A stretch of DNA of 44,956 nucleotides, taken from Campylobacterales bacterium (GTDB lineage: Bacteria > Campylobacterota > Campylobacteria > Campylobacterales > QNZT01). A model generated the notes under the pieces. It did no database searches and was not told the DNA's origin. It saw only the letters and a list, made by a program, of their open reading frames with translations. Shown in pieces: positions 517 through 41,540 of the stretch. The stretch spans positions 1 through 44,956 of the forward strand of contig JAJRSK010000049.1 of the NCBI GenBank assembly GCA_024278835.1. The letters are read 5' to 3'. A program made the position numbers and the translations under genes. Each line of letters starts with the position of its first letter. The first letter of the stretch is position 1.

Positions 517-1972
517 CCAATATCTCCTCTCTTTTTTCCACTTTTAGATAACTCTCAAACTCTTTTGCCAAGGCTTTTCTATCTATCTCGTGGGATTTAC
601 CTGCGTAGATATTCTCTTCTAGTTGCTTGATAAGGTGCTGTATCTTTGGTGTCTTATCGATGTAGGGTAAGAGAAGTGAGAGAAGAGCTTTATCCTCTTT
701 GGCATTTTTGATACGCTCTTTTATAGGTTTTTCTTGCTGCTCTTTTTTCCTGCCTTTGAAAAGGTTAAAAAGCGTGGTCGCCATCACACCCAACAAAAAG
801 GAGAGGATTGCTGTTATCATGATAGCACTTTTGGAGCTCTCTTTGACGATTTTTACCTCTTGTTTTACCACGGGTATCTTCTTTTCCAAGGCAGCTGAAA
901 CGTGATGTGCTTTGGCATTTTTTACTTCTATTTTAAACTCTCTAGAGTGTACTCTCTTGACTTCACCATTGAAAAAAGAGAACTCCAATGAGGGAATCGT
1001 AAAGTTTCTATCACTCACGATGGCGAATTTCTGTTTAAATATCCCAGAATTTCTCTTGGCTTTATCCGCATAGACCGTAGCATCAGGCACCTCAATCTCA
1101 AAATCATCGATATCATCCATATTTCCCTCACCCTGTATAGTGATAGTGAGATTGACTGGTTCATTGGCTTTTGTGACATTTTTATCCGCCACTACGGTAA
1201 AGGTATAATCCCCATAGAGTGAAATCCCTTCAGGCAGAGGCTTCACATGGATATCGAGGCTATTGGAATAAAATGTTTTCCATCTAGCCCGCTGAAAATT
1301 AAAAAAATCTCTCTGTTGTGTAGAGAGTATCCCCACATCCATACGCCCTGATTCTATCGTCAAATCACCACTTTTTTGTGGATAGAGAAGATAGTTGATC
1401 GTATAGACACTATAGTCGCCTTTGACCTTATTTGGCACTTTCTTCGTCGTTTTTGCCCAAAAGTTTTCAAAAGAGGGTGCATTAAAGTTGGCTTCTTGGA
1501 GGTCAATATCACGACGCTGTTTAAAGATATATGTCAATACGATAGGCTCTCCCACATAGACCTCTGTTTTATCTACCTTTTGTTCAAAAACAAAGGCTTT
1601 TTTTCCATCTTTAGTATCTGGTTTTATCTTTAGATTTATCGGCTCACTCATCACTTTTTTACCATCTATCATGATAGGCAAAGCAGGGATAACACCCTCT
1701 TTTTTCGGATTGAAACTATACTTTCTTATCAAGGTTTTTTTCACTTTACCATTGATGGAGGTGATACTTCTTGTGGTTGATTTATTGGTGATTTTATATC
1801 CTGCTATCTCCTTGATATCAGGGAAAACGACATCCAATCCTTCCACTTCCAAGAGAAGGACTGCCGCATCTCCCTCTGTGATAGGATTGCGCTCTAGTTT
1901 TGCACGCACAGAGGCTATCATGATAGTATGTATAAGCAACAAGATAGCGACTATTCTACCAAGGTTTTTCAT
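509..1972 (-). CDS. batD: BatD-like oxygen-tolerance family protein
   Basis: A 487-residue envelope protein with an N-terminal signal segment (about residues 5-24, ending ASVRA), a long beta-rich periplasmic part of BatD type, a C-terminal membrane helix near 385-405 (SAIMITAILSFLLGV) and a Lys-rich cytoplasmic tail. BatD proteins occur with MoxR and von Willebrand A proteins in Bat operons, linked in some bacteria to aerotolerance and envelope stress; the biochemical activity is not established. It overlaps the upstream BatB-BatC gene by 17 nt and the downstream SUI1-like gene by 8 nt. Two copies of TATCATGATA lie in it, both read Ile-Met-Ile, one in the signal peptide and one in the C-terminal helix. 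Confidence 0.85.
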   Translation of the reverse strand: MKNLGRIVAILLLIHTIMIASVRAKLERNPITEGDAAVLLLEVEGLDVVFPDIKEIAGYKITNKSTTRSITSINGKVKKTLIRKYSFNPKKEGVIPALPIMIDGKKVMSEPINLKIKPDTKDGKKAFVFEQKVDKTEVYVGEPIVLTYIFKQRRDIDLQEANFNAPSFENFWAKTTKKVPNKVKGDYSVYTINYLLYPQKSGDLTIESGRMDVGILSTQQRDFFNFQRARWKTFYSNSLDIHVKPLPEGISLYGDYTFTVVADKNVTKANEPVNLTITIQGEGNMDDIDDFEIEVPDATVYADKAKRNSGIFKQKFAIVSDRNFTIPSLEFSFFNGEVKRVHSREFKIEVKNAKAHHVSAALEKKIPVVKQEVKIVKESSKSAIMITAILSFLLGVMATTLFNLFKGRKKEQQEKPIKERIKNAKEDKALLSLLLPYIDKTPKIQHLIKQLEENIYAGKSHEIDRKALAKEFESYLKVEKREEILDV

Positions 1973-3656
1973 CGTTTACCCTTTCTGCTGGCTTCATTTT
2001 GAGTTTTATCGGCATCGTTTTTGCTTTCATATTTTCCAATCTCTTCTCCCACATCTTTTCCTCTTTTTTACTTATTGGCTCTTTTTTTTGTGCTTTTTTC
2101 TCTTTCTTGGATTGTTCTGGTTTTTTAGGCTCTTCTTTTTTATCTTTATTTTTCTTTTTCTCGTCTTTGTTTTTATCTTTATCTTTTTTCTTAGCGTCGT
2201 CATCACCCTCTTTTTTATCTTTTTTCTTTTTGTCCTCTTTCTGTTTCTTTTTGTCTTTTTTCTTTTGTTCTTTTTTCTTTTTCTCTTCAAGCTTCTTTTT
2301 TGCCAAGGCCAAGTTATGCTCTAAATCCTCTTCTGTTTTTATCTTTTTGGCTTTTTCATAGGCTTCTATCGCTTTTTCATACGCTTTTAACTGCATATAC
2401 GCATTGCCACTATTGAAGGCTTTTTTATACTTAAGCGCATCCGTTTTGGGTGTAACATTTTGATAATTTTTTAGCGCCTCTTTGTACTTGCCACTCTTAT
2501 ACTGTGCATTTGCCAAGTCATAGATACTTTGGGCACTTTTGTTGGATTTTATCACCTCTTTATAGTGTCTGACTGCCTCTTTATAATTTCTCTTTTCATA
2601 CGCTTTTTCCGCTTTATCTATATCAAAAAAGTTAAACACCTTCGCCTCTACATCCCTAGGAGACGCTATCATGATAAGCCCTATCATGATAAGCGAAGTA
2701 CGCGCAGGAAGTGAGTGAAAAGCAAAGAGTAAAAAGGCGATTGCCACAGAGAGCGGATAGTAAAAAAGTTCTCTATACTCTTTGACGCTTTTCTCTTTTA
2801 CCTCTTGCATCTTAAACTTTTTCTTGATATCTTTGACTAAAAGTTCGATGCTGTTATCTTCATGATTTCCTACGATATACGCACCGCCTGTTTCAAAAGC
2901 GAGGTTTTTGATATTTTCGTTAAGTTTAGTGATGACGATGTTGCCCTCTTTATCTTTTATCGATTCGCCATTCTCGATGATTGGCGCACCCTCAGGCGTT
3001 CCTACTGCATAGATATAGATACTCTCTTTATACGCTTTTGCCTTTTCTATCTCTTTAGACAAGTCCATTTTATCCCCACCATCGCTAAAAATAATGATGA
3101 TTTTATCACGTGACTCTTTTAAAAAGTCATTCCCTTTTTCGATGGGAATGAGGAGATTTGTTCCCTTTAAGCTCATGGAATCTAAGGAGAGATTATTGAC
3201 TAGGTACTTTAGTGTCGCACTATCTTGTGTCATAGGAGAGACCAAAAACCCCTCAGAAGAGAATGCTATCACACCTACATTGGCTTCTGCAAAGCTATCG
3301 ACAAACTCCATAAAACGCTTTTTCGCAAAGGCTAGCCTAGAGGGGTAGATATCCCCCGCCATCATCGACTTGGAGATATCTAAAGCCACCATCATATCTA
3401 TACTTTTAGATTTTATCTGCACATCCCCTTTTTCCACCACAGGACGCGCAAGTGCCACTATCATCATGATAAGCGCGACAAAGAGCATGATATTTCGCCC
3501 TATTTTTCCCAAAGTACCATTGTCAAAGCGCAGTTTCTCCAAAATCTTTTCATCAAAATAGAGATCCAACGCCGACTTATTGCTCACTATAAAATAAAAA
3601 AGTATCAAGGTAGGAATCAACATCATCGTCAAATACTCAGGCTTTAAAAATATCAT
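1956..3656 (-). CDS. batB: BatB-BatC fusion: vWA membrane protein with TPR and charged tail
   Basis: A 566-residue protein. Two N-terminal membrane helices (about 8-25 and 54-70) precede a von Willebrand A domain with the metal-ion site DISKS at 93-97 and FSDGG further on. Membrane helices follow near 303-345, then TPR-like repeats (about 360-470, for example YKEAVRHYKE, YKEALKNYQN, YEKAIEAYEK). The last 100 residues are extremely rich in Lys, Glu and Asp. In Bacteroidota BatB (vWA) and BatC (TPR) are usually separate genes; here they are one frame. It overlaps batA by 4 nt. Two TATCATGATA copies 15 bp apart encode the helix sequence IMIGLIMI. The TPR part probably faces the periplasm (inference). 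Confidence 0.88.
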   Translation of the reverse strand: MIFLKPEYLTMMLIPTLILFYFIVSNKSALDLYFDEKILEKLRFDNGTLGKIGRNIMLFVALIMMIVALARPVVEKGDVQIKSKSIDMMVALDISKSMMAGDIYPSRLAFAKKRFMEFVDSFAEANVGVIAFSSEGFLVSPMTQDSATLKYLVNNLSLDSMSLKGTNLLIPIEKGNDFLKESRDKIIIIFSDGGDKMDLSKEIEKAKAYKESIYIYAVGTPEGAPIIENGESIKDKEGNIVITKLNENIKNLAFETGGAYIVGNHEDNSIELLVKDIKKKFKMQEVKEKSVKEYRELFYYPLSVAIAFLLFAFHSLPARTSLIMIGLIMIASPRDVEAKVFNFFDIDKAEKAYEKRNYKEAVRHYKEVIKSNKSAQSIYDLANAQYKSGKYKEALKNYQNVTPKTDALKYKKAFNSGNAYMQLKAYEKAIEAYEKAKKIKTEEDLEHNLALAKKKLEEKKKKEQKKKDKKKQKEDKKKKDKKEGDDDAKKKDKDKNKDEKKKNKDKKEEPKKPEQSKKEKKAQKKEPISKKEEKMWEKRLENMKAKTMPIKLKMKPAERVNDEKPW

Positions 3657-4594
3657 GCTGTTCCCCTACGATTGAGTAAAAATGTATAAAAAAGAAGAGA
3701 CAAAAAGGCCAAAAAGAGTGGATACTCAAAATAGTAAGACTTTTTGATATACTTTTCACTCTCAATCTCACTCTTTTCCATCTCATCTATCCTCTCATAA
3801 ACCGCCTTGAGGTCATCTTTTGAGTGTGCGGCAAAAAAGAGTCCACCCGTAGCATCTGCGATAGACTTTAGATGCTGCCCATCAAAATCTTTATTCTCTC
3901 CGATACCTATGGTATAGACTTTCACACCATATTTTTTGATTCGCTTCATCGCTACATTAAAGGGGATATTATCCCCACGGCTCTGTCCATCTGTGAGTAA
4001 AATAATGATTTTTGTTTTAGCCTTGGAGTCTGAAAAAAGCTTCGCTGCCTGAAAGAGTGCATCATTGATTACCGTATAGTTTGAGCCTGCTACGCCTACA
4101 TAAAGCCCTTGCATAATCTCTTGTAAGACTTTTTCATCATAGGTTAAGGGTGCAGCCACATAAGCAAAGTTACCAAAAACAACCAAACCAATTTGGTCAT
4201 CTTTTCTCTTTTGCACAAAAGATTTTGCCAAAGACATCGAGATATCAAACTTGCTCTCATTCGCCCCTGCTTGCATACCAAAAAATTGATCCCCAAAGCC
4301 ATATTTCATCGAGCCACTCGCATCGAGCACAAGTGCGATAGAGTAGCCTTCCTTGTTTTCCACTTCTACCTTATCCTCTATCACAGGCGAAGCCAGTGCG
4401 ATAAGTGCAAAGAGGATAGAGAGCCATTTGAGCACCTTTATAAGATGTGTTTGACTTCCTTTACTCTCCATAAAGATATTAAGATGTGGAAAAAGTATCG
4501 CTTCGGCACGCGCTTTACAATAATACCCGCACATCAAAAAAAGCCCTATCAAAAGCAAAACAGCAGGATACTCAAATACCAACTCACCCATCAA
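3653..4594 (-). CDS. batA: BatA-like von Willebrand A membrane protein
   Basis: A 313-residue protein with two N-terminal membrane helices (about 8-27 and 52-72), a vWA domain with an intact metal-ion adhesion site DASGS at 91-95 and the downstream LLTDGQSRGD, and a C-terminal hydrophobic helix near 288-308. vWA domains of this group are thought to act with MoxR AAA+ ATPases in assembling or remodelling envelope complexes. The start overlaps the DUF4381-like gene by 11 nt and the end overlaps the BatB-BatC gene by 4 nt, indicating translational coupling. BatA versus BatB naming rests on order and topology. Confidence 0.85.
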   Translation of the reverse strand: MMGELVFEYPAVLLLIGLFLMCGYYCKARAEAILFPHLNIFMESKGSQTHLIKVLKWLSILFALIALASPVIEDKVEVENKEGYSIALVLDASGSMKYGFGDQFFGMQAGANESKFDISMSLAKSFVQKRKDDQIGLVVFGNFAYVAAPLTYDEKVLQEIMQGLYVGVAGSNYTVINDALFQAAKLFSDSKAKTKIIILLTDGQSRGDNIPFNVAMKRIKKYGVKVYTIGIGENKDFDGQHLKSIADATGGLFFAAHSKDDLKAVYERIDEMEKSEIESEKYIKKSYYFEYPLFLAFLSLLFYTFLLNRRGTA

Positions 4595-4967
4595 TGACCT
4601 CTAAAAATAGATTATATTGCCCGATAGTCTCTTCATCAAAAGGTGGCGGGTTTGGGGTAAATTTATACCGCTCAAGCTTTTTTTCCAAAGCTTCAAATAT
4701 CTTTTGACTTCGCTCTTCTTTTGCCAAATATCGTGCATACTTGGTGATTTTATAAGCAGCATCTTTGGCGTTGGAAAAGTCGATATTTTCAAGTCTTTTA
4801 CGCACCTCTTTGGCTGTTAAATCCTCTTTTTTACCCTTAAAATGACGCACTATCATGATAAGCATACCACCCAAAACAAGTAGCCCAAAGGCTATCATGA
4901 TAACAAAGAGATAAAAGGAGATATCAGGAATCTCTTCTAAGCCTCGTATGTCTCTTAAATCTTGCAT
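4584..4967 (-). CDS. DUF4381-like single-span membrane protein
   Basis: A 127-residue protein. The N-terminal LRDIRGLEEIPD is the signature start of DUF4381 proteins, followed by one membrane helix (about residues 18-42) and a charged cytoplasmic helical domain. DUF4381 genes normally sit between DUF58 and vWA genes in MoxR operons, exactly as here. The helix contains two TATCATGATA copies, read FVIMIA and LIMIVR, 42 bp apart. Molecular function is unknown for the family. Confidence 0.78.
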   Translation of the reverse strand: MQDLRDIRGLEEIPDISFYLFVIMIAFGLLVLGGMLIMIVRHFKGKKEDLTAKEVRKRLENIDFSNAKDAAYKITKYARYLAKEERSQKIFEALEKKLERYKFTPNPPPFDEETIGQYNLFLEVIDG

Positions 4968-4968
4968 A

Positions 4969-5802
4969 TCACCTCTTTAAAAATAGTTTTGACAATTTTA
5001 CAAAGGGATCTTCATCCGTATAAATCTTTGTAAATGCCACACGGTTTTTACGACAATGCGCATAAAACTCATGGTCTTTTTGGTGCACTTTCTCTCTGTA
5101 TCTCTTTAGCGCTTTTTTATCTATCTGCATTAATTGGCTATTTAAAGAGCCAGGGTCTGCTAAGTTGATAGTGCCTAACTCGGGAGGATTTTCTTCAAAC
5201 CTATCTCGTATCATGATAGCCACCACCTCATGCTTTTTAGCCAAAAGCTTAAAGTCAAATTCTTCAAAAAAATCACCCAAAACAAAGATAATTGAACGCC
5301 TCTTTATCTCTTCAAATAAGCTTTTACTCAAAGCTTTACTCGCTACACTCTTACCCAAAGCATCAAAGGTCAGTACATTTTCTACTGCCTTATGCACGGC
5401 ATGGACATTTTTTGTCGGTTTAATCACAGTATCGATACTATCTGTGTAGATATAAGAAGAGAATTTATCCCCATTTTTAGCAGCTGAAAATGCCAAGAGT
5501 GCCAGCACTTCAGCGATGACCTCTTGTTTAAAACGCTTGGCTCCAAAATGAACTGAACCACCAAGCAAAGAGACGATAGCGATATTGAGTTCTCTCTCTT
5601 CTTTAAATATCTTGATAAAAGGGCGCTGCATCTTTGCGGTGACATTCCAATCGATGCGACGCACATCATCTCCATAGTTATATTCACGAAGTTCTACAAA
5701 ATCAAAACCCTCACCCTCAAAAATAGAGGGGTTATTGCCAGAAATTTCAGAAAAAATCTGCCTTTTTGTCTTGATTAAAATCTTTTTTAATGTACGCAAC
5801 AA
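4969..5802 (-). CDS. DUF58 domain protein of the MoxR operon
   Basis: A 277-residue soluble protein. It shows the DUF58 signature at about 41-56 (YNYGDDVRRIDWNVTA) and a divergent vWA-like remainder. DUF58 proteins are almost always encoded directly after moxR and are inferred partners of the ATPase. The gene begins 6 nt after the moxR stop codon and ends 1 nt before the DUF4381-like gene. One TATCATGATA copy is read Ile-Met-Ile in AIMIRDRF. Confidence 0.87.
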   Translation of the reverse strand: MLRTLKKILIKTKRQIFSEISGNNPSIFEGEGFDFVELREYNYGDDVRRIDWNVTAKMQRPFIKIFKEERELNIAIVSLLGGSVHFGAKRFKQEVIAEVLALLAFSAAKNGDKFSSYIYTDSIDTVIKPTKNVHAVHKAVENVLTFDALGKSVASKALSKSLFEEIKRRSIIFVLGDFFEEFDFKLLAKKHEVVAIMIRDRFEENPPELGTINLADPGSLNSQLMQIDKKALKRYREKVHQKDHEFYAHCRKNRVAFTKIYTDEDPFVKLSKLFLKR

Positions 5803-8163: not shown

Positions 8164-9076
8164 CTATCGTATAAGGCTTTTTATTTTGCGCCCCATAATA
8201 GGTACGAATGATAAGTTCTGCCAAAAATCCTGTCACAATCAACAAAATACCAACAAAGGTAAGCATCACACCCAAGATAAGCAGAGGACGTGTCCCTATA
8301 CTATATCCAAAAATTTTCAGTATCATCATATAAAAATTTATCATCATACCCATACCGAAGGTGATAATTCCCATCGTACCAAACAGATGCATCGGCTTTT
8401 GGCGGTATTTTTCCATGAAGACCATCAAAAGAAGATCACTCATCACGCGAAAAGTCCGTCCTATACCATACTTGCTCTCACCATGTATCCGTGCATGATG
8501 TTTCACATCCACTTCTGTAATTTTCGCTCCATTAAGTGTAGCAAGTACAGGGATAAAACGGTGTAACTCCCCATAAAGTTCAAGGTTTTTAGCCACTGAC
8601 TTTTTAAATATCTTCAACGTACAACCATAATCAGAGATATAAACACCCGTAAGCTTTCTGATTAATTTATTGGCAAGTTTACTAGGCAGTTTTCGCAGAA
8701 TAAAGCCATCTTGACGCTTCGCACGTTTTCCAGCGACCACATCCCACTTACCCTCTTCTAAAAGCTTTATCATCATAGGGATATCACTCGGGTCATTTTG
8801 TAAATCCCCATCAATCGTCGCAATAAGCTCCCCTTCAGCGACATCGATACCCGCTGCCATCGCCGTCGTTTGACCATAGTTGCGCTTAAAGATAACGACT
8901 TTTGTACGTGCATCAGCCTCCACTTTCATACGCTCTATCGTCCTATCAGTAGAACCATCATCTACCAAGATAAGTTCATAATCTATGCCATCCAAGGCTT
9001 CACGTACGGCTTTAAAAAGAGGTTTGACATTGTCCTCTTCATTCATCATTGGTACCACTAGGGATAATTTTCTCAT
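8141..9076 (-). CDS. DPM1/ArnC-like polyprenyl-phosphate glycosyltransferase (GT2)
   Basis: A 311-residue membrane enzyme with a GT-A domain: the VDDGSTDRT nucleotide-sugar site at about 38-46 and IDGDLQNDPSD at 88-98, including the metal-binding Asp pair. Two C-terminal membrane helices (about 228-252 and 262-290) are typical of dolichyl/undecaprenyl-phosphate sugar synthases. It probably charges undecaprenyl phosphate with a sugar at the inner membrane, supplying the GT39 transferases upstream in the operon (inference). It overlaps the adjacent GT39 gene by 4 nt. The sugar is unknown. Confidence 0.88.
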   Translation of the reverse strand: MRKLSLVVPMMNEEDNVKPLFKAVREALDGIDYELILVDDGSTDRTIERMKVEADARTKVVIFKRNYGQTTAMAAGIDVAEGELIATIDGDLQNDPSDIPMMIKLLEEGKWDVVAGKRAKRQDGFILRKLPSKLANKLIRKLTGVYISDYGCTLKIFKKSVAKNLELYGELHRFIPVLATLNGAKITEVDVKHHARIHGESKYGIGRTFRVMSDLLLMVFMEKYRQKPMHLFGTMGIITFGMGMMINFYMMILKIFGYSIGTRPLLILGVMLTFVGILLIVTGFLAELIIRTYYGAQNKKPYTIDEIYEKK

Positions 9077-10593
9077 ATTTGCTCTACTTTCACGAGGGAA
9101 ATGCCTCTATTTTTGTAAATAATATCATATTTTTTTAGTGAATCTAATTTATTGCTTTTGATCAGCACCACATCACCCACTCTTATCTCGCCACGACGCA
9201 CCTTTTTTTGGCTATAAAAGATAAATGTCGGCACATTGATATGAGACATCGTGACATTTAAATCCCTCTCTTTGACTATCATTGCTGCCTCTTTTATCGG
9301 TGTCTGTTTTGCATGTGCCACCAGTGGCATCACCACAAAGCTAACTATCATAATAAACAAAAAACCTACAGCAAGCAACTTTGAAAAAAGTGACCACTCC
9401 AGCCTTATCATGATAATAGAAAATATCACCGCACCTAACAATGCCCCATAATAGAACACGTCAAAAAGCACCATCGAATCTTTTAAGATTTCAACAGCAT
9501 AAGCATCTCGTATCACTTCTAAGCCACCAAAGTTTAAAAACAGTGGAAGGGCCAATAAAATCAGATAAAGTAAGATAGATGGCATAATCAACCAGAAACT
9601 ACTCATCCGCTCTTGCCATAAAAGTCCCACCAAGACAAAAAGTGGCGTATACCCATAGATGACATAATGAGGCAATTTCGTCCCTGAAAATGAGAAAAAG
9701 ATAAAAACAAAGAGAAACCAGATGATGAGAAAAAGATGCAGATCATTTTTAAAAAGTGTTTTTACCTTTACAAGCACCTTGATATAAAGCGTCGTAAAAG
9801 GCAAAAGCCCTATCAAAAAGACAGGGATATAGTAAACCAAAGAGCCATAATGCCCTTCCATCGCCCCATTAAAACGGCTGATATTGTGCTTGAAAAAAAA
9901 TCCATTGATGAACTTCTCACCCTGATCCATATACTCCAAAACATACCAAGGCGCAGCAACAAGTAAAAATATCCCAATCCCCAGAGGGTTAAAAACAGAC
10001 TTTAACCAAAACTTCCACTCCCCTTTAATCATAAAAAGCAGAAAACTCACTACCATCGGTATCATGATAGCCACAGGCCCTTTAGTCAGCGCGCCAAGCC
10101 CTACAAAAAGATAGGTAAAAAAGATAAATCTATTCTCTCTTGTCTCATACAAGCGATAAAGAGAAAACATAGCTAAAGCGATAAAAAGATTAAGCAGTGC
10201 ATCTGCGATAGCCGCTTTGGCAATGATGGTGATTTGCAAAGAGGCTATCATGATAAAGCTCGCGATAAATGCCCTTTTACTGTCCGCATAACGCTTGGTA
10301 AAAAGATAGGTCGCTCCTACCCAAAGCGCTCCAGCAATCGCAGAGGGCAAGCGCACAGCAAACTCGTTTAAACCAAAAATCTTCACTGAAAGGGCTTGAA
10401 ACCAATAGATAAAGATAGGCTTATCAAAACGCAGCTCCCCGTTGAGATAGGTAGTCAAGAAATTACCACTCTCCAACATCTCACGCGTTGCTTCAGAAAA
10501 TGCCCCCTCATCCAAGTCAAAGAGTGGCAACCATCCAAGCGTGGCAAAAAAACTTATAAAAAGTGCTAGCAAAAGCGCTATCTTAATTTGCAT
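9073..10593 (-). CDS. GT39 / ArnT-like integral membrane glycosyltransferase
   Basis: About 506 residues with roughly ten or more membrane helices and the DLDEGAFSEATREM motif in the first periplasmic loop (Asp residues near 26 and 28), typical of PMT/ArnT enzymes that use polyprenyl-phosphate sugars as donors. I chose the ATG at 10593: GAGG lies 9 nt upstream and it gives an 11-nt overlap with the PAP2 gene. The longer start at 10623 would put ten polar residues before the first helix. Three TATCATGATA copies occur, each read Ile-Met-Ile in a helix. The acceptor (lipid A, protein or other glycan) is unknown. Confidence 0.83.
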   Translation of the reverse strand: MQIKIALLLALFISFFATLGWLPLFDLDEGAFSEATREMLESGNFLTTYLNGELRFDKPIFIYWFQALSVKIFGLNEFAVRLPSAIAGALWVGATYLFTKRYADSKRAFIASFIMIASLQITIIAKAAIADALLNLFIALAMFSLYRLYETRENRFIFFTYLFVGLGALTKGPVAIMIPMVVSFLLFMIKGEWKFWLKSVFNPLGIGIFLLVAAPWYVLEYMDQGEKFINGFFFKHNISRFNGAMEGHYGSLVYYIPVFLIGLLPFTTLYIKVLVKVKTLFKNDLHLFLIIWFLFVFIFFSFSGTKLPHYVIYGYTPLFVLVGLLWQERMSSFWLIMPSILLYLILLALPLFLNFGGLEVIRDAYAVEILKDSMVLFDVFYYGALLGAVIFSIIMIRLEWSLFSKLLAVGFLFIMIVSFVVMPLVAHAKQTPIKEAAMIVKERDLNVTMSHINVPTFIFYSQKKVRRGEIRVGDVVLIKSNKLDSLKKYDIIYKNRGISLVKVEQI

Positions 10594-11182
10594 CCATAAT
10601 CCTCTTTTTGTAGTATCTCTCATAGAGTATATAAGAGGTCAATGCCCCTATCAATCCACCTATCATGATATCACTAGGATAGTGTCTGACAATCACCACA
10701 CGACTTATCATGACAGCCAAACCAAAAAGATAAAACCCTACACGAAACTTAGGAAACAGAAGTGCCAATGCTGTTGCCGCACCTAAAGAAGTCGCGGAGT
10801 GTCCTGAGGGGAAAGAGGTCATTGTATGGGAAAGATGAAAAAAGTCAAATCCAAACAGCCCCTCTTTAAAGTACAATTCTGGACGAAAACGCCCCCCGAC
10901 CATCTTGATAAGTAGCACGATAATGCCTGAGAGTGCTAAAGAGACAAAAACAAACCTAGCTTTCATGGCAATAAGACTATCTCTCTTTTGATAATAAAGA
11001 TAGACCACCAAGGCAGGAATCAGATAATACTCTATCTGCCCAAACTTGGTTAAAAAGTGAAAGATGTCATAGAGCATATCCCCTTTAGCATTTTGAAAGT
11101 ACCTAGCCACAGGTAAATCAAAAAAGTTATAAGAGAGCAGTGCTGCTATCATGATAAACACACTCACGATGACTCTAGGCAA
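10583..11182 (-). CDS. PAP2 superfamily membrane phosphatase (second copy)
   Basis: About 199 residues, five to six membrane helices and a complete acid-phosphatase motif set: KMVGGRFRP (Kx6RP), FPSGHSATS and SRVVIVRHYPSD (SRx5Hx3D). Such enzymes dephosphorylate lipids: undecaprenyl pyrophosphate, phosphatidylglycerophosphate or lipid A. I chose a TTG start at 11182 because GAGGAGG lies 6 nt upstream; the first ATG of the frame (11218) lies 44 nt inside the upstream gene. Two TATCATGATA copies are read Ile-Met-Ile. It is adjacent to another PAP2 gene with similar motifs, possibly an old duplication. Confidence 0.82.
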   Translation of the reverse strand: MPRVIVSVFIMIAALLSYNFFDLPVARYFQNAKGDMLYDIFHFLTKFGQIEYYLIPALVVYLYYQKRDSLIAMKARFVFVSLALSGIIVLLIKMVGGRFRPELYFKEGLFGFDFFHLSHTMTSFPSGHSATSLGAATALALLFPKFRVGFYLFGLAVMISRVVIVRHYPSDIMIGGLIGALTSYILYERYYKKRIMDAN

Positions 11183-11834
11183 GCGTAGCCTCCTCTTTAT
11201 AAAAGAGGTAATAAACACCCTTTAAAATCATAAAATTGATGATAAAAGCAAAGAGCACATCAGAGAAAAAATGCCCTCCTTGCACCACACGCGTCAATGC
11301 CATCGCTACCCCAAAACCAAACCCCAAAAGAAAAACTTTTCGGCTTCTCATCACATATCCAAACGCCATAAAGAAAAAAGCCGCCGCCGCATGCCCACTG
11401 ATAAAGGAGCAGTTGGTTTTACACGCACCGTTTACTTGATAATAAGGGGTAAATTGCTTCTGCCCTCCAAATTGTGTCACATGCACAGGACGCACACGCC
11501 CAGAGAACTCTTTAAAAAAAAGATTGGTCACGATACCCGGTCCAATGAGTAAAAATGTTAGTAAAAAAGCAACTGCCTTTTTATCAAAATAGTCTGATTT
11601 TTTACCCGTTTTTTTCTGATAATAAAGATACGCAAAAAGCAAGAGAAAAGTCACGATAAACAGAGGCGCCAATATATCATGAAAAAATGCCGCCAAGGGG
11701 TGGTCTTTGAGAAAAAATCCCTCCCCCTCTCTATAAAAAAGCCCAGAGACCTCCAAGTCAATCTCAGGAAAAAGCGCAAAAAGTACCAAGCTTCCAACTG
11801 TAAAAATGATAAAAAACTTAGAAAAGTGCATCAA
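11175..11834 (-). CDS. PAP2 superfamily membrane phosphatase (first copy)
   Basis: A 219-residue membrane phosphatase with KEFSGRVRP (Kx6RP), SFISGHAAA (SGH) and TRVVQGGHFFSD (Rx5Hx3D), all catalytic residues present. The phrase NLFFKEFSGRVRPVHVTQFGG resembles PAP2 proteins that act on lipid A or on undecaprenyl pyrophosphate, but the substrate cannot be decided. Its stop codon overlaps the chosen start of the next PAP2 gene and its own start overlaps the GT39 gene upstream by 4 nt, so the block is one transcription unit. Confidence 0.83.
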   Translation of the reverse strand: MMHFSKFFIIFTVGSLVLFALFPEIDLEVSGLFYREGEGFFLKDHPLAAFFHDILAPLFIVTFLLLFAYLYYQKKTGKKSDYFDKKAVAFLLTFLLIGPGIVTNLFFKEFSGRVRPVHVTQFGGQKQFTPYYQVNGACKTNCSFISGHAAAAFFFMAFGYVMRSRKVFLLGFGFGVAMALTRVVQGGHFFSDVLFAFIINFMILKGVYYLFYKEEATLA

Positions 11835-13282
11835 TATCCCTTGAAATTCTTTAGATAGTAGAGATTATAAGAGCGGTTATAATCAGGATACATGACGATA
11901 TTGATCTCTCCAGCATCTTTAATCTTATCAAAATATCTCTCCATCCCCTCGATACCCTTATCACTTACAAAGAGAAAATCTCTACCTTTTTGGCTATTTA
12001 AATCGCGTGTGATATGGTACTGATTTTTCATAGCATGTGTTGGATTCCAGATATAAGTTTTCTCTTTGGCATAGTAGTCAAACTGCGCCACTTCTGTTCG
12101 TCCATCTGTTAAGAGTAGTGTGTTTGGATAAGAGTGATGTGCTTTCACTATCTGCCTACCCACATCACTCCAGCCACTCACGCGTTTATAGGGGTCAATC
12201 TTTCGTGTCAACTCCACCCCAGCAAGCGATGCAAAGGTATGATAGTGATAAAAGACGATAGCCAAAATCGTATGTATCAACACAGAGAGCTTTAACAGTT
12301 TCACTTTTTTTAACTCTATCAGATATGCCACCACCAAAATCGTCGCAGACACATAAGTAACCGCAGCCCAATTGGCATAAGAGCGACTTGTAAAGGAGAG
12401 TATCATGATAACACCCAGCGTAGAGATAGCAAAGAGAAAAAGAATCAAATATTTTTCATTTTTGACAATGGCTTTTTTAAACACCATCACCCAAAAATAG
12501 TAAAAGAGGATAGGACCAAAAACCAAAAACTGTAGTCCAAAAAATTCAAAAAATTTATTGGGATGAAAGACTTTCTCTTTGACTCCAGAGAGATCACTCG
12601 TATGCGTAAAAGAGACAAAATCGTTATTGTAGTTCCAGATAAGATTTGGTAAAAATATCACAAACGCTATCATGATAGTGATATAGAGGTTTCTGTTTTG
12701 AAAATATTTACGGTATTTTGGTATCAATGCTAAGACTAAAAAAACCGATACCAAAAAGAAAATAAAGTTATATTTACTCATCAAACCAAAACCAGAAAAC
12801 ACCCCAGCCCAGATCCAGTCACTTGTCCTATCAGATAAAAGTGCTTTGATGAAAAATAACAATGCCAAAGACCAAAAAAGAAGTAGCACCACATCAGTAG
12901 AGATAATCATACTCGACATCCATACAGAAGGCAAGGTAAAGAAGATAATCGCAGCATAAAGTGCCACTCTTTTATCAAACAATGCTTTTGCAATGAGATA
13001 AATGACATAGGTCGTTATCGGATAAAGTAGCATCGAGCCTATCTTGATAGCCACTTCACTCTCACCAAAAATAGAGGTTGTCAGGTAAATAAGCCACGAT
13101 AGCATAGGTGGTTTAGAGTAATAGCCCCAATCCACATGCTGCGCCCAGTTAAAATAATAAGCCTCATCAAGATAGAGGTCATAAGGAGAGTTAAGCAGCA
13201 CAAAAAGACGATAAATCCAAAAAAGAATCATCAGCGAAACAATCACTAAGGTTTCATTCTTCCCTTCACTTTTCTTCACCAC
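11831..13282 (-). CDS. GT39 / PMT-like membrane glycosyltransferase (second)
   Basis: A 483-residue protein with about ten membrane helices. The first loop carries DLYLDEAYYFNWAQHVDWGYYSKPP, with the Asp-Glu of GT39 and a KPP segment typical of ArnT/PMT_2 proteins. A C-terminal soluble part (about 380-483) is predicted periplasmic. With the DPM1-like GT2 it forms a lipid-linked sugar synthesis and transfer module. It overlaps the flippase-like gene by 17 nt and the PAP2 gene by 4 nt. Two TATCATGATA copies are read Ile-Met-Ile. Confidence 0.82.
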   Translation of the reverse strand: MVKKSEGKNETLVIVSLMILFWIYRLFVLLNSPYDLYLDEAYYFNWAQHVDWGYYSKPPMLSWLIYLTTSIFGESEVAIKIGSMLLYPITTYVIYLIAKALFDKRVALYAAIIFFTLPSVWMSSMIISTDVVLLLFWSLALLFFIKALLSDRTSDWIWAGVFSGFGLMSKYNFIFFLVSVFLVLALIPKYRKYFQNRNLYITIMIAFVIFLPNLIWNYNNDFVSFTHTSDLSGVKEKVFHPNKFFEFFGLQFLVFGPILFYYFWVMVFKKAIVKNEKYLILFLFAISTLGVIMILSFTSRSYANWAAVTYVSATILVVAYLIELKKVKLLKLSVLIHTILAIVFYHYHTFASLAGVELTRKIDPYKRVSGWSDVGRQIVKAHHSYPNTLLLTDGRTEVAQFDYYAKEKTYIWNPTHAMKNQYHITRDLNSQKGRDFLFVSDKGIEGMERYFDKIKDAGEINIVMYPDYNRSYNLYYLKNFKGY

Positions 13283-26361: not shown

Positions 26362-26449
26362 CCCATCTTCTATCATGATAAGCGCCATTTAATCTCTATT
26401 GACATTTTTGATGCATATCTTAGTACAATGCCACTACAGGAGAATAATC

Positions 26450-27214
26450 ATGAATAAAAATGCAATACTCGGTATAGGATTTGTCCTACTTGCCATCATA
26501 GGGTATCAAGGATATCTATTAAGCCAAAAAGATACCCCACAAGAAGATGCTGTCATAGAGAAAAAAATTGTTAAAAAAAATGCACCAGAAATCACTATCA
26601 ACATCGACAAAACAAAAAATGAAAAACAGGTGAGAACAGCCACCCAAGCACCAACAGTATCAAAACTCACAGATGATGAGAGACGACTGCAAGACCAAGA
26701 AAATATCGAAAAAAGTATCCAAGATGTTTTTAAAAGTATCTTTGCTTCCAAAGAGGTGCAGGATGGCTTACAGCAGTTTAAACAACAAGCAGAACAAGGG
26801 ATGAAAGAACTTCAACACGAGTTAGAAAATCTCCCTTCCAAGATAGATAGCCTACAATCTGAACTCAAAGATGATCCTTTTTTCTCACAAATTTTAGGAC
26901 AATTAAAAGGATTTAGTGGTAAACAACTCGAAGATAAAGGCGACTATTACTATCTCAAAACTACCGTAGTGGGAGGTAAAGAATCCAAAGTTGACATCCA
27001 AACAAAAGGAAACTTTCTTACTATCATGATAAGTGCAAAAGAGGACAAAACTACAACAAAAGATAACACAACGATGCACCAAAGTTCTTCTCAAAGCAGT
27101 AAAAATGTCCTTCTACTCCCTGCAGATGCTCTAGTAGAAAAACTACAAACCCACTATGAAAATGGTATACTAGAAATCACCATACCAAAATTAACAGCAA
27201 AGACTAGCCTATGA
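26450..27214 (+). CDS. Membrane-anchored protein with Hsp20-like C-terminal domain
   Basis: About 254 residues. I chose the ATG at 26450, preceded by AGGAG with 7 nt spacing; an upstream in-frame ATG (26399) has no such site. One N-terminal membrane helix (about 5-22) is followed by a polar linker, a helical segment with GLQQFKQQAEQGMKE, and a C-terminal domain whose GDYYYLKTTVVGG and YENGILEITIPK look like the alpha-crystallin domain of small heat-shock proteins. The topology is extracytoplasmic by inference. The end overlaps the thioredoxin-like gene by 4 nt. One TATCATGATA copy encodes TIMIS. Confidence 0.7.
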   Translation: MNKNAILGIGFVLLAIIGYQGYLLSQKDTPQEDAVIEKKIVKKNAPEITINIDKTKNEKQVRTATQAPTVSKLTDDERRLQDQENIEKSIQDVFKSIFASKEVQDGLQQFKQQAEQGMKELQHELENLPSKIDSLQSELKDDPFFSQILGQLKGFSGKQLEDKGDYYYLKTTVVGGKESKVDIQTKGNFLTIMISAKEDKTTTKDNTTMHQSSSQSSKNVLLLPADALVEKLQTHYENGILEITIPKLTAKTSL

Positions 27215-30269: not shown

Positions 30270-30395
30270 ATTTTTCCTTTTTTCTTTAATATACTCAATA
30301 TCTTTTTAACGATACTTGATATATCGACCACTTTTTAAAAAAGTTTAAATAATTTAATTTTTTATCTTTATTCATTATCATGATATACTTATTTT

Positions 30396-30821: not shown

Positions 30822-31982
30822 ATGCTTTCAAAACGAATCCAGAGCTTATCACCATCACTAACTATCGCTATATCAACCCTTGCACAAGAGCTCAAAGCCG
30901 AGGGAAAAGATGTCATATCTTTCTCCGCCGGTGAGCCAGACTTTAACACACCACAAGTTATAAAAGATGCAGGTATCGCCGCTATCACTGCTGGATTTAC
31001 AAAATATACTGCTGTTCCCGGTATCATAGAACTCAGAGAAACTATCGCTGCTAAACTTAAAAGAGACAATGCTTTAGAGTATTCACCAGCAAATATTATC
31101 ACAAGCAATGGTGCAAAACAATCACTCTTTAACCTCTTTCAAGTAGCACTTGAAGAAGGTGATGAAGTCATCATCCCTGCGCCTTATTGGGTAACTTACC
31201 CTGAACTTGTTAAATACTCTGGTGCAACTTCAATCTTCATCGAGACAGAAGATATAGACAATTTTAAAATCACGGCTGAAAAACTCAAATCCGCAATCAC
31301 ACCTAAAACAAAGATGTTGATATTGACAACCCCTTCTAATCCAACAGGTTCACTTTACTCAAAAGAAGAGTTAAGCAAGTTAGGAGAAGTCCTCAAAGGA
31401 ACTGATATCTTGGTAGCTAGTGATGAAATGTATGAGAAACTTGTCTATGACGCTGCTTTTACAGCCCCTGCTAGTATCTCAGATGATATGTTTCAACGAA
31501 CCATTACCATCAATGGTCTCAGTAAAGCCGTTGCCATGACAGGATGGCGCTTTGGCTACCTCGCAACACCCAATAAAGAGCTAATATCTGCGATGAATAA
31601 ACTACAAAGTCAAAGTACTTCAAACATCTGTTCTATCACACAACACGCGGCTATAGCAGGACTTGATGGTTCTGCTGATGCCGATATCGAGATGATGCGA
31701 CAAGCGTTCAAAAAAAGAAGGGATTTAGCTGTAGAATTATTTAATGAGAGTGATAAACTCTCGGTTAACAAACCTGATGGGGCATTTTACCTCTTTGTCA
31801 ATATCAAAAAAGTGAGCAATGATTCTATGCAGTTCGCTAAAGACTTACTCTCCGAAAAGGGAGTAGCTGTCGTCCCTGGACTTGGATTTGGAACAGAAGG
31901 GTATTTTAGATTTTCTTTTGCAAGTGATGAAGAAACTATCAGAGAAGGGATTAAAAGAATTCGGGATTTTTGCGAAAAATAA
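30822..31982 (+). CDS. aspC: Aspectate-family (class I) aminotransferase, probable aspartate aminotransferase
   Basis: A 386-residue PLP enzyme of the aspartate aminotransferase Ib group. Visible are SFSAGEPDFNTP, the NPTG motif in TTPSNPTGSLY, SDEMYEKLVYD, TINGLSKAVAMTGWRFGY with the Schiff-base Lys near 233, and the substrate-binding Arg in GYFRFSFA. It interconverts aspartate and 2-oxoglutarate with oxaloacetate and glutamate; an alternative aromatic or prephenate activity cannot be excluded. AGAGG precedes the ATG. Confidence 0.9.
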   Translation: MLSKRIQSLSPSLTIAISTLAQELKAEGKDVISFSAGEPDFNTPQVIKDAGIAAITAGFTKYTAVPGIIELRETIAAKLKRDNALEYSPANIITSNGAKQSLFNLFQVALEEGDEVIIPAPYWVTYPELVKYSGATSIFIETEDIDNFKITAEKLKSAITPKTKMLILTTPSNPTGSLYSKEELSKLGEVLKGTDILVASDEMYEKLVYDAAFTAPASISDDMFQRTITINGLSKAVAMTGWRFGYLATPNKELISAMNKLQSQSTSNICSITQHAAIAGLDGSADADIEMMRQAFKKRRDLAVELFNESDKLSVNKPDGAFYLFVNIKKVSNDSMQFAKDLLSEKGVAVVPGLGFGTEGYFRFSFASDEETIREGIKRIRDFCEK

Positions 31983-31992
31983 CTACGCTATC

Positions 31993-32019
31993 ATGATATT
32001 GGCAAAGTGCCAATATCAT
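31993..32019 (+). terminator. Rho-independent terminator after the aminotransferase gene
   Basis: ATGATATTGGCA (31993-32004) and TGCCAATATCAT (32008-32019) form a perfect 12-bp stem with a three-base loop AAG, followed by CTTTTATCTT. The left arm overlaps the TATCATGATA copy at 31989-31998, so the palindrome is again part of a terminator. Confidence 0.8.
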
Positions 32020-34236: not shown

Positions 34237-34722
34237 CTACTGTCTTATGATTTCAAAGTTTGTTAACTCTTCTGTGATACTCACAAACTCACCATTTTCA
34301 TCAAAAGAAATTTTGCCTTTACCATCTACATGGTTATTTTTGTAGTAGATAAATTCACAAGTTTTGTCTTTACAACTTAGTGTGATGTTTTTGATATCAC
34401 TTATCTCATAGCGTTTAAACTTTGGTCTCTCACTCAAACTTTGTGAAAATGCATACAGCATCATTTTTTTATCTTTTTTAAATTTTGATTTTTTGATTTT
34501 TGGCTTCTCTCCACCATAGTAAATAAGGTTATCTTTACCCAGCAAAAATCTAGCCACACGACTCGTCACTTTTGCTTTAAGATAGAGATCTTTTACCGTA
34601 GAGATATCTGTCACTTCACCCAGTGTCATACCTCTAAAATTGACATCATACCTTGCTGAGGAAGCAGCCAAAGAAGCATCTAATGTAAGTGCCATGACTA
34701 TCATGATAATTATTTTTCTCAT
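34237..34722 (-). CDS. Periplasmic hypothetical protein (weakly DUF3108-like)
   Basis: A 161-residue protein with a signal peptide (about 1-20, ending SLAAS) and a beta-rich mature part beginning ARYDVNFRGMTLGEV, which loosely recalls DUF3108 envelope proteins. Two Cys (LSCKDKTCEF) may form a disulfide. The signal peptide contains a TATCATGATA copy read IIIMIV, and another copy lies in the upstream region at 34746-34755. The DUF3108 suggestion is weak. Confidence 0.6.
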   Translation of the reverse strand: MRKIIIMIVMALTLDASLAASSARYDVNFRGMTLGEVTDISTVKDLYLKAKVTSRVARFLLGKDNLIYYGGEKPKIKKSKFKKDKKMMLYAFSQSLSERPKFKRYEISDIKNITLSCKDKTCEFIYYKNNHVDGKGKISFDENGEFVSITEELTNFEIIRQ

Positions 34723-34781
34723 CTGTTTTCCTTATCTTGTTATACTATCATGATAGAGGTTGATTGTGTATTATTTGTGAA

Positions 34782-35740: not shown

Positions 35741-35761
35741 TAATCACTCTGACACCATATA

Positions 35762-36280
35762 TCATGATATTTCTTCATAAATTCTATGGCTCATCTCTCG
35801 TCCTAGCGTTGCCTCTATCTTATCTAGCATCCCGATAAGATAGTTATACCCGATATAGTGAGGTATCGCTACGATAAGCCCACCCACCGTCGTAATCAAT
35901 GCCAAAGATATCCCAGAGGCAAATACACTAGGATCATCCATACCTTGCTGTGAAATCGCTTCAAAGGCAGATAGCACCCCTATCACCGTTCCAAGTAATC
36001 CTAAAAGAGGCGCAATGGACGCAATGATACGCACGGTACTTAGACCTCTTTCATATTGCACCATTTTATCAGTTAAGATATCTTTTCCCAGAGCAAGTTT
36101 TGCTTCCTTCCCACTTACAGTAAAACCATCATAAACTTGCGAAACAATCTTAGATGCTTTTCTTTTAGCAAGCAGATACTGTATCAACTTTATAATCATT
36201 GTGGTAAACCCTATGATATTGAGCGCAAGTAAAACGTACATGATTACGCCTCCCTTATCCATATAATACATCAAATCCAT
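35762..36280 (-). CDS. exbB: ExbB/MotA/TolQ proton channel protein
   Basis: About 172 residues with three membrane helices (about 13-32, 93-118 and 130-152) and the conserved SIAPLLGLLGTVIGVLSAF and GISLALITTVGGLIVAIP. It uses the proton gradient to drive TonB. Three consecutive ATGs occur at 36286, 36283 and 36280; AAAAGG ends at 36287, so the third, with 6 nt spacing, is the best start. The stop codon TGA lies inside a TATCATGATA copy (35760-35769), the only copy read in that frame. Confidence 0.92.
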   Translation of the reverse strand: MDLMYYMDKGGVIMYVLLALNIIGFTTMIIKLIQYLLAKRKASKIVSQVYDGFTVSGKEAKLALGKDILTDKMVQYERGLSTVRIIASIAPLLGLLGTVIGVLSAFEAISQQGMDDPSVFASGISLALITTVGGLIVAIPHYIGYNYLIGMLDKIEATLGREMSHRIYEEIS

Positions 36281-36284
36281 CATC

Positions 36285-36419
36285 ATCCTTTTATCAATTT
36301 AAATTATTTTTAATTACGCAATATGAACAAAGTCCATATTCCTAACGCTGACGCTATGTCCTGCTCAGCGCAGAGCTCACGCACAGTAAAACCGTGCTAT
36401 CCTTTTATCAATTTAAATT
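36285..36419. repeat. 93-bp insertion-like element between 21-bp direct repeats (tonB/exbB junction)
   Basis: Bases 36285-36305 and 36399-36419 are identical (21 of 21). The right copy encodes the last TonB residues FKLIKG; the left copy supplies the AAAAGG ribosome site of exbB. The 93 bp between carry repeat-family sequence (36345-36398, with CTCACGCACAG). Removing the 93 bp plus one repeat copy would restore a direct tonB stop/exbB start overlap (GGATGATGATGG). Confidence 0.75.
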
Positions 36420-39166: not shown

Positions 39167-39829
39167 CTAGTACCACTCTACTATCTGTTCTATGGTCTGT
39201 CTTGTCTTCTCATTTTGGGTATTGAGACGATATCCAAATGCAAGCATCACAGCCACCTCAAACGCATCACTATCCATCCCAAACTCCTCTATCATGATAG
39301 CTTCAAGTTCATCTTTTTGAAATCCCTCAATCGGACAAGAATCGATACCTAACATTGCCGCCGTGCTCATCATATTTCCCAGTGCGATATATGTCTGTTT
39401 GGCTGCCCAGTCCACCATCGCCCTCTTATTAGCTAAGAGTTTAAAATCCTCTTTTTGAAACTTCTCATAATATCCACGACGCATCTCTGCCTGTTCTTCT
39501 TCTAAATGGTGCACATCATACATCATCTGTGTGATATAGTCGGCATCATAACGCATACTCTTCTCTTTGCGTGCTAATATAATTACAAAGTGACTCGCTG
39601 TTGGCAAAGTACCTTGTGCACCCCAAGTGACAGGCATCAACTTCTCTCTTAGCTTCATATCTTGTACCACCAAGAACTTCCATGGCTCAAAACCAAAAGA
39701 GCTAGGAGACAACCTCCCTACTTCCAAAATGGTATCAAAATCCTCACTACTTATCTTTTTATCTTTGTCAAAAACCTTACAAGCGTGACGAAAATTAAAG
39801 GCCTTTAATATCTCATTTTTCTCTATCAT
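39167..39829 (-). CDS. Nitroreductase family NAD(P)H-dependent oxidoreductase
   Basis: A 220-residue FMN flavoenzyme of the NfsB type: FRHACKVFD near the N-terminus, GRLSPSSFGFEPWKF (FMN/substrate contact) and IDSCPIEGFQKDE near the C-terminal third. It reduces nitro compounds or quinones. GGAGACC precedes the ATG, which itself lies in a one-mismatch copy of the palindrome; a perfect copy (39290-39299) is read Ile-Met-Ile. With the DJ-1 gene upstream it forms a stress-type pair beside a LysR regulator. Confidence 0.88.
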   Translation of the reverse strand: MIEKNEILKAFNFRHACKVFDKDKKISSEDFDTILEVGRLSPSSFGFEPWKFLVVQDMKLREKLMPVTWGAQGTLPTASHFVIILARKEKSMRYDADYITQMMYDVHHLEEEQAEMRRGYYEKFQKEDFKLLANKRAMVDWAAKQTYIALGNMMSTAAMLGIDSCPIEGFQKDELEAIMIEEFGMDSDAFEVAVMLAFGYRLNTQNEKTRQTIEQIVEWY

Positions 39830-40652: not shown

Positions 40653-40691
40653 GTCAAATTATATTTCTTCTACAAAGGTATAAATATATTT

Positions 40692-41540
40692 ATGGTAAAT
40701 CTCGAACTATACAGAACATTCATCTCCATCTATCGTGAGGGAACTATCTCTAAAGCAGCCATCTCTGTGGAAATCACCCAACCTGCAGCAAGTCAACAAC
40801 TTGCAAGCCTGGAAAAGTCACTCAAAACAAAACTTTTTGAACGCACACCTAGGCAGATGGTACCTACCGATATGGGGCATGAACTATATACCAAGATATC
40901 CGACTCTTTTGACTGGATAGACCAAGTGAGTAAAAACTTTTCACATACAAGTGACAAACAGACACTTTTTACTATTGGTACACCTTTGGAGTTCTATCAT
41001 GATAGGCTGTTGCCACTACTCACATCTCTACCTTTTCGTTGTCATTTTGTTTTTGGCAGTACACAAGCCTTGGCACAGATGCTAGAAGACAATAGACTAG
41101 ATGCTATGATTGCGACACACAAGATACGCACTCCTAATCTCATCCATCATGATATCTTTACAGAATCCTTTTGGCTTGTAGCACCTAATGACTTAGAGAT
41201 ACCAAAAAACTACTCAAGAAGTTGGCTTATCAAACAACGCTGGATAAGTTACGATGCAAAACTCTCCATCATCCGAAAATACTTCAAAACCATATATAAC
41301 ATAAAACCAGCTATCGCACCTATACTTATCACTCCAAATCTACATACTATTTTAAAAAGTGTTGAAAATGGGATTGGTATGAGTGTTTTACCTGATTATA
41401 TCTGCAAAAATTCCATAATAGAAAAGAGAGTGACATTGGTACACAAGCCAAAAATAGCTATCAGCAACACACTCTACTTTGTCTACAAAAGCATGAAAAA
41501 AGAGAGTTTACTGGTGAAAGAATTTTTAAAACATCTGTAA
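40692..41540 (+). CDS. LysR family transcriptional regulator
   Basis: A 282-residue regulator: an N-terminal winged helix-turn-helix (about 2-60, ISKAAISVEITQPAASQQLASLEKSL) and a LysR-type ligand domain. It is divergent from the DJ-1 and nitroreductase genes and probably regulates them, perhaps in response to electrophiles (inference). One TATCATGATA copy is read Tyr-His-Asp, the only coding copy outside the Ile-Met-Ile frame apart from the exbB stop. Confidence 0.9.
   Translation: MVNLELYRTFISIYREGTISKAAISVEITQPAASQQLASLEKSLKTKLFERTPRQMVPTDMGHELYTKISDSFDWIDQVSKNFSHTSDKQTLFTIGTPLEFYHDRLLPLLTSLPFRCHFVFGSTQALAQMLEDNRLDAMIATHKIRTPNLIHHDIFTESFWLVAPNDLEIPKNYSRSWLIKQRWISYDAKLSIIRKYFKTIYNIKPAIAPILITPNLHTILKSVENGIGMSVLPDYICKNSIIEKRVTLVHKPKIAISNTLYFVYKSMKKESLLVKEFLKHL

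Follow-up and report, generated by a model that had tools for sequence, protein, structure and literature searches.

A CATG-centred palindrome iterated throughout a Campylobacterales genome combines marks of DNA uptake sequences and of HIP1

Three described systems come close to the element reported here. One comprises the DNA uptake sequences (DUS) of the Neisseriaceae and the uptake signal sequences (USS) of the Pasteurellaceae; DUS exist as dialects that differ between lineages. Meningococcal DUS are spaced on average about 1,150-1,500 bp apart, form pairs in terminators and lie in permissive regions (PMC2397512). The second is the highly iterated palindrome HIP1 (GCGATCGC) of cyanobacteria with its alternates, which contain the site of a resident methyltransferase, the alternates being GC-rich (PMC4390886). 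The third is found in Campylobacter jejuni, which, according to two reports, takes up DNA only if it is methylated by CtsM at RAATTY (PMC8468864, PMC10046745). Here we describe the 10-bp palindrome TATCATGATA in contig JAJRSK010000049.1 of a Campylobacterales bacterium (44,956 nt, the whole stretch analysed, hereafter the window), and compare it with these systems in the genome to which the window belongs (G000; 2,507,854 bases, 77 contigs) and in its relatives.

The window contains 33 exact copies of TATCATGATA, where 100 dinucleotide shuffles average 0.10 with a maximum of 1 and an order-3 Markov model expects 0.72. It is by far the commonest 10-mer palindrome there, the next two having 3 copies each. 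An earlier, sequence-only reading of the window had counted 32 exact copies, one too few, and had rightly claimed a strong enrichment over random expectation; its placement of seven copies between genes and one over a stop codon agrees with our gene calls (25 genic, 7 intergenic, 1 stop-codon), which come from our own hexamer script and not from a standard caller. In the whole genome 1,549 copies were found against 7 for the reversed-sequence control, and TATCATGATA is therefore not confined to the window. In a 657,730-base sample of G000 (the window plus 38 sampled stretches; a first sample consisted of the window plus 20), 459 copies stand against 11.8 expected from the order-3 Markov model, about 39-fold (918 vs 23.5 on both strands). 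The density is even, at 0.40-0.99 per kb in those first-sample stretches that have readable letters. Neither a frequency near the third-order Markov expectation nor an enrichment limited to the window, the two outcomes that the sequence-only reading had set against its own proposal, was observed, and the enrichment is confirmed as real. TATCATGATA is a short palindrome present genome-wide far above Markov expectation, as highly iterated palindromes are, and is over-represented genome-wide near one per kb, as DUS and USS are.

The signal is a 12-mer, yTATCATGATAr. Among the 241 copies of the first sample (240 with full flanks), TATCATGATA is preceded by C in 59% of cases and by T in 26% and symmetrically followed by G or A, with almost nothing conserved farther out. 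The near-copies that are in excess differ mostly by transitions, above all in the outer positions (T0C, 67 vs 15.6; A1G, 28 vs 6.9; C3T, 13 vs 6.9; counts over both strands), with one transversion, A4T, mildly raised as well (26 vs 17.2).

The copies are distributed unequally between genes and the spaces among them. In the G000 sample, 352 are coding, 69 intergenic and 38 at a gene edge, which corresponds to 1.63 per kb outside genes vs 0.59 inside. The sole congener, G001, shows 133, 32 and 16 copies of TATCATGATA in these classes (2.07 per kb outside vs 0.35 inside), and another genome of the same family, G002, shows 85, 8 and 2 copies of its own dialect (0.88 vs 0.46). Inside genes of the G000 sample, TATCATGATA is read as Ile-Met-Ile (216) or Tyr-His-Asp (129), the third frame containing a stop; by our gene calls, an ATG start is provided by 38 of the copies and a TGA stop by 16. 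Density is highest, at 3.89 per kb (39 copies), within the 40 bp that follow stop codons, and amounts to 1.40 (19 copies) within the 40 bp ahead of starts, two sets of windows that can overlap in short gaps.

Spacing in this sample is near exponential, with a mean of 1,242 bp, save for close pairs: 22 pairs lie 12-34 bp apart vs 7.2 expected. Twenty pairs fall within 30 bp, 8 of them inside one gene and 12 not; 8 of these 12 start 3-11 bp past a stop codon, the window pair 21299/21318 included, and when the criterion is tightened, 8 of the 20 pairs count as wholly intergenic. G001 has 4 pairs at 16-24 bp vs 0.6 expected; in G002 two pairs are closer than 34 bp, each of them inverted. By position these pairs match the close inverted pairs that DUS and USS form at terminators, and they may have a terminator role.

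Copies turn over, and many are retained. The G000 and G001 samples align over 61.5 kb at 75% identity; 15/31 G000 sites are intact at the orthologous place in G001 and 15/24 G001 sites in G000, the figure for any 10-mer being 8.3%. Residue identity at coding copies is 40/135 (30%; 45 sites) in the comparison with G002, against a background of 52%, and 62/108 (57%; 36 sites) in that with G001, against 65%, which places the copies in permissive regions, where DUS also lie. G002's own motif is present at none of the 45 G000 coding sites compared. New copies arise at permissive positions, and within the genus a part of them is then kept.

In k-mer counts on samples of relatives, iterated motifs keep the CATG core and have other flanks. 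The G002 dialect, TATCATGTAG/CTACATGATA, is not a palindrome (TATCATGTA, 95 vs 5.4 expected in 195 kb); genome-wide, TATCATGTAG occurs 487 times in G002 (control 5), 62 times in G014 and 0-15 times in the other 20 genomes of the 22-genome family set. A further dialect, TTACATGTAA or TACATGTA, is iterated in the samples of G076, G185, G397, G355, G149, G136, G206 and G347. Across a 397-genome phylum set, TTACATGTAA reaches at least 30 copies in 31 genomes from three families (next highest 19), namely 20/22 in family f10 (up to 1,496 copies), 9/51 in f8, and G355 (1,059) and G339 (78) in f3. G076, of family f10, has 1,220 copies, and the first 20 kb of its second contig are identical to the Sulfurospirillum diekertiae plasmid pSDCE1, by which the genome is assigned to that species. 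The G015 sample yielded GTCATGAC, 5 in 105 kb. Since the relatives' versions share only CATG, the inner TCATGA, which the sequence-only reading had proposed to check for methylation, is not the conserved heart of the motif.

No CATG-centred motif stood among the top enriched words in 5-40 kb samples of G006, G008, G010, G012, G017, G018, G019 and G020, or in 7-40 kb samples of G142, G400, G323, G304, G362, G179, G252, G125, G230, G094, G073, G137, G031, G036, G345, G346, G275, G078, G145, G190 and G289; samples of 5-40 kb could miss weaker motifs, and the G350 stretch had no readable letters. In the same survey, short samples L169/L170 (G019) and L204 (G304) each had a non-palindromic word that recurred, twelve and eleven times respectively, probably local arrays such as clustered regularly interspaced short palindromic repeats (CRISPR). 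Two related S. diekertiae plasmids (39.9 and 38.0 kb; L233, L234) carry 4 TTACATGTAA each vs about 17 expected from the G076 density, which counts as one observation and not two; each also carries 3 TATCATGATA, and on one of the plasmids there is a relative, 61% identical, of the D12 methyltransferase described below.

TATCATGATA itself is abundant in both members of the genus, with 1,009 copies in G001. The other 20 genomes of the family set have 3-88, and several of them exceed their control, most of all G015 (88 vs 6) and G008 (66 vs 5). In the phylum set the next genome after G000 is G081, with 166 copies (control 2), followed by one with 23. For the 12-mer CTATCATGATAG the counts are 16 in G081 (control 0), 14 in G015 (control 1) and 10 in G008 (control 0).

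A candidate partner is a D12-class methyltransferase of G000 (336 aa; L106:1495-2505; PF02086 match), which contains FAGTG and DPPY. Its gene lies between xth and selO (neighbours identified by eye), and none of the 4 open frames listed around it looked, judged by eye, like a restriction enzyme. The gene is also present in G001, where the protein is 78% identical and selO again lies beside it, and in G002 (55% identical). NCBIfam gave weak matches only, plasmid relatives are named DNA adenine methylase, and solved-structure sequences included no relative at E 0.01. We take the enzyme to be kin to M.HpyAI and M.NlaIII, and on this kinship it is probably CATG-specific. M.HpyAI, an enzyme listed in the alpha class, has CATG as its methylation site (PMC3936762). 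N6_N4 methyltransferases (PF01555) were considered as partner and rejected, G000 having two weak below-cut-off matches with internal stops and G001 none.

We called genomes motif-rich if they had at least 30 TTACATGTAA or at least 60 TATCATGATA, thresholds set after seeing the tables; 33/397 genomes qualify, and 24 of these have strong relatives of the D12 protein (E up to 1e-60). In family f8 the enzyme is found in 6/9 motif-rich vs 4/42 other genomes (Fisher p 0.0008). In genus g28 copy numbers are higher in the 11 genomes with it (411-1,496) than in the 4 without (49, 238, 412 and 934; p 0.006), and in f10, leaving aside G081 with its other dialect, 15 genomes with the enzyme differ in copy number from 6 without (p 0.006). 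Some D12 match at 1e-10 occurs in 235/397 genomes, most of them without the motif. The D12 methyltransferase accompanies the motif, significantly but imperfectly.

Competence was addressed through ComEC, the sole competence gene sought. It is present in 57/59 genomes tested, including G000, G001, G002, G081 and 30/31 TTACATGTAA-rich genomes (G220 lay outside the test set); it was missed only in G004 and G006, whose draft assemblies have 280 and 480 contigs. A parallel to C. jejuni emerges from CTAAATTTAG, a word containing RAATTY that is enriched over its control in much of family f3 (G331, 423 vs 10; G172, 205 vs 2; G133, 200 vs 1; G289, 182 vs 4), including most of genus g8 (61-200 vs 0-11). 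It is not clearly enriched in genus g16 (4-90 vs 3-44) or in some g8 and g22 genomes (G162, 16 vs 24; G199, 15 vs 23; G161, 17 vs 17), and other families have 0-53 copies, mostly near or below control. In a 20 kb sample of G289, TAAATTTA occurs 56 times vs 9.6 (both strands). If f3 is the Campylobacteraceae, the uptake-methylation site RAATTY may likewise sit in an over-represented palindrome, which is suggestive only. The CtsM system belongs to the same phylum, and the principle we propose, an adenine-methylation site serving as self mark for competence, is its own; unlike the CATG core within its 10-12 bp context, RAATTY is short and very frequent, with 28,170 sites in one C. coli genome.

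How, then, does the motif compare with the described systems as a whole? The sequence-only reading had likened it to HIP1 and to uptake signals. That analogy is partly supported and holds in many features, and the functions it had listed, binding site, methylation target or uptake signal, can be narrowed down: pairs after stops, permissive coding sites and dialects would suit a signal of the uptake type, which a probably CATG-specific methyltransferase accompanies. With DUS and USS the motif shares its density, a signal length of 10-12 bp, the close pairing behind stops, coding copies at permissive sites and dialects between lineages; number, spacing, loose ends, the position of pairs at gene ends and retention with turnover are further marks of uptake sequences. 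It differs from them in that most dialects here are palindromic and centred on a presumed methyltransferase site. HIP1 and its alternates resemble it as highly iterated palindromes around a presumed orphan-methyltransferase site, present about once per kb, with alternates replacing the motif in some lineages; the CATG that all dialects share and the probable CATG enzyme found with them are HIP1-like traits. Here, unlike in HIP1, the core is CATG, the sequence is AT-rich (2/10 G or C in TATCATGATA), the phylum is another one, one dialect is non-palindromic, and copies favour gene 3' ends.

The C. jejuni case shows how the two sets of marks could be one, and we therefore rank a methylation-linked uptake signal above a HIP-like effect of methylation or repair, and the latter above a chromosome-protein site. 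Whether these bacteria use the motif to recognise their own DNA for uptake, probably reading it together with CATG methylation, is in our judgement an evenly balanced call. On such a model, an orphan CATG adenine methyltransferase would mark the CATG core, which would accordingly be methylated in this organism, and a component of the competence machinery would recognise the core plus its flanks (yTATCATGATAr in this genus, CTACATGATA in G002, TTACATGTAA in Sulfurospirillum). DNA bearing the signal would be imported and recombined more often, so that intact copies would spread by molecular drive or selection. Where protein and regulation allow, copies would accumulate to about one per 1.2-1.6 kb; where the system is lost, they would decay. 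More tentatively, we suggest that the Campylobacterota may possess an epigenetic uptake code, in which the mark of an orphan methyltransferase (CATG in this genus and Sulfurospirillum, RAATTY in Campylobacter) would be combined with an iterated, lineage-specific and mostly palindromic context (about 1 per 1-2 kb, spread by molecular drive) acting as dialect.

Several points weigh against the uptake reading. Known uptake sequences are, to our knowledge, not palindromes, and we know of no uptake signal in Helicobacter pylori, whose M.HpyAI methylates CATG. ComEC does not discriminate, because motif-poor genomes carry it too. The folding scores of close pairs are no independent evidence, since one copy of a palindrome can always pair with another into a stem (the shuffles behind the folding z-scores preserved base composition only); it is the position of the pairs that counts. 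Protein-level alignments, weak or paralogous matches included, keep only 11/36 coding sites in G001. The tests of association with the enzyme treat related genomes as independent. Nine of the 33 motif-rich genomes lack a match at 1e-10 (G149, G166, G185, G202, G260, G326, G339, G370, G387), some with high TTACATGTAA counts (G260, 934; G185, 567; G370, 412; G387, 380; G149, 340), and the enzyme is not required for the motif today. Nor is it sufficient, for G031, G036, G345 and G346 have the enzyme and no such motif stood out in 20-40 kb. Finally, CATG is scarce in some motif-free enzyme carriers, not clearly in all (observed/expected: G275, 0.29; G078, 0.29; G289, 0.34; G145, 0.51; G345, 0.58; G036, 0.64; G190, 0.66; G031, 0.87; G346, 1.05), the range in motif-rich genomes being 0.68 (G149) to 1.29 (G355).

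The second explanation dispenses with uptake: the palindrome would be a by-product or tool of the orphan CATG methyltransferase. Methylation, acting with repair or replication that recognises methylated CATG in its context, would favour mutation towards the palindrome, Elhai's proposal for HIP1 being transferred here. It fits with dialects centred on CATG, in the way that HIPs hold the site of a resident methyltransferase (PMC4390886), with the company of the D12 enzyme, 78% identical in the congener and beside selO in both genomes, and with a density of the same order as that of HIP1. A 4-bp site alone, however, leaves a 10-12 bp signal with genus-specific flanks unexplained, and a methylation site by itself accounts neither for the non-palindromic G002 form nor for the bias to the 40 bp after stops and the excess of pairs; the nine motif-rich genomes devoid of an enzyme match tell against it too. 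We consider this explanation possible and rather unlikely.

A binding site for an abundant dimeric protein that organises, segregates or repairs the chromosome, with lineage-specific specificity, appears improbable to us. Palindromy in two of the three clear dialects speaks for it, as does the evenness of density (0.40-0.99 per kb) across the stretches sampled, but the G002 form is not palindromic, spacing is near random save for the close pairs, and one would not expect a structural site to favour gene 3' ends and permissive residues. The last reading, a mobile repeat dispersed through the genome or an accident of composition, has nothing in its favour beyond repetition itself and is in our view excluded for practical purposes by the flank analysis and the Markov comparison: almost no sequence is conserved past 12 bp, copies are intact at orthologous places often within diverged flanks, and the excess is about 39-fold over the order-3 model, with 1,549 copies against 7 in the reversed control.

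If the motif is indeed an uptake signal read with methylation, uptake sequences would exist in a further bacterial group and would join uptake motifs and methylation-based self-recognition, hitherto studied apart; HIP1, whose function is unsettled, would gain a comparison in another phylum. The dialects TATCATGATA, CTACATGATA and TTACATGTAA, with their differences in copy number, are a natural experiment on how such motifs rise and fade, and cultivable Sulfurospirillum species make function directly testable. Among the matches listed in open-licence PMC articles, none described either motif string, and none gave an account of Sulfurospirillum palindromes or methylomes or of Campylobacterota uptake signals with CATG. 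The known Sulfurospirillum regulator site CTATW-N17-CTATW (PMC7755780) bears no resemblance to the motif.

Beyond the phylum, close pairs of TATCATGATA were sought in one genome for each of 84,980 species (G000 itself perhaps excluded), a scan that misses low-density genomes and that few-hundred-copy genomes could escape. The 50 stretches it yielded comprise 6 of the congener, 34 of two genomes of Candidatus Lindowbacteria and 10 single matches; only the congener, besides the two Lindowbacteria genomes, gave repeated separate pairs. Scattered occurrence of the motif in other phyla was rejected, the Lindowbacteria matches being a compound palindromic element and the other stretches single matches. 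This element, found in many copies at loci of 57-65% GC (L025, L026, L028, L031, L034, L035 and others), consists of overlapping TATCATGATA units between aaagtga and tcacttt and is a different repeat family that holds the same 10-mer. In viral contigs, TATCATGATA pairs occur in 18 stretches with 2-4 copies each; one of the contigs, L086, has 63% GC and carries a close pair of this AT-rich word. TTACATGTAA pairs occur in 42 viral stretches and were mostly local clusters in the 9 whose flanks were inspected. We take these clusters for something other than the same system, some lying inside longer operator-like palindromes: among L281, L291 and L266, which all have TTACATGTAA clusters, those of L281 and L291 sit within longer palindromes such as tatcTTACATGTAAgata, resembling phage operators.

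Table 1. The 33 exact copies of TATCATGATA in the window, with gene calls from our own script.
Copy	Position	Gene (strand) or context	Remark
1	815..824	509..1972(-)	read as Ile-Met-Ile
2	1667..1676	509..1972(-)	
3	1916..1925	509..1972(-)	
4	2667..2676	1956..3656(-)	close pair with copy 5
5	2682..2691	1956..3656(-)	close pair with copy 4
6	4851..4860	4584..4967(-)	
7	4893..4902	4584..4967(-)	
8	5209..5218	4969..5802(-)	
9	9406..9415	9073..10623(-)	
10	10060..10069	9073..10623(-)	
11	10246..10255	9073..10623(-)	
12	10661..10670	10583..11218(-)	
13	11147..11156	10583..11218(-)	
14	12401..12410	11831..13282(-)	
15	12668..12677	11831..13282(-)	
16	13395..13404	13266..14198(-)	
17	13785..13794	13266..14198(-)	
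18	14058..14067	13266..14198(-)	
19	17255..17264	intergenic	
20	20506..20515	20465..21295(+)	near predicted protein start; lipobox according to the sequence-only reading only
21	21299..21308	intergenic	3 bases past end of 20465..21295(+); close pair with copy 22
22	21318..21327	intergenic	copies 21 and 22 can fold as stem-loop behind gene
23	22032..22041	21394..22521(+)	
24	23851..23860	23825..24157(+)	
25	26371..26380	intergenic	between 25066..26361(+) and 26399..27214(+)
26	27022..27031	26399..27214(+)	
27	30376..30385	intergenic	
28	31989..31998	intergenic	just past 30822..31982(+)
29	34699..34708	34237..34722(-)	
30	34746..34755	intergenic	
31	35760..35769	35762..36286(-)	over stop-codon end
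32	39290..39299	39167..39829(-)	
33	40995..41004	40692..41540(+)	read as Tyr-His-Asp

The Ile-Met-Ile frame is used by 24 of the 25 coding copies in the window. As to the genes themselves, positions 1956-4594 hold BatA/BatB-like VWA genes and positions 8141-13282 give matches to ArnC- and ArnT-like glycosyltransferase models, in both cases below curated cut-offs.

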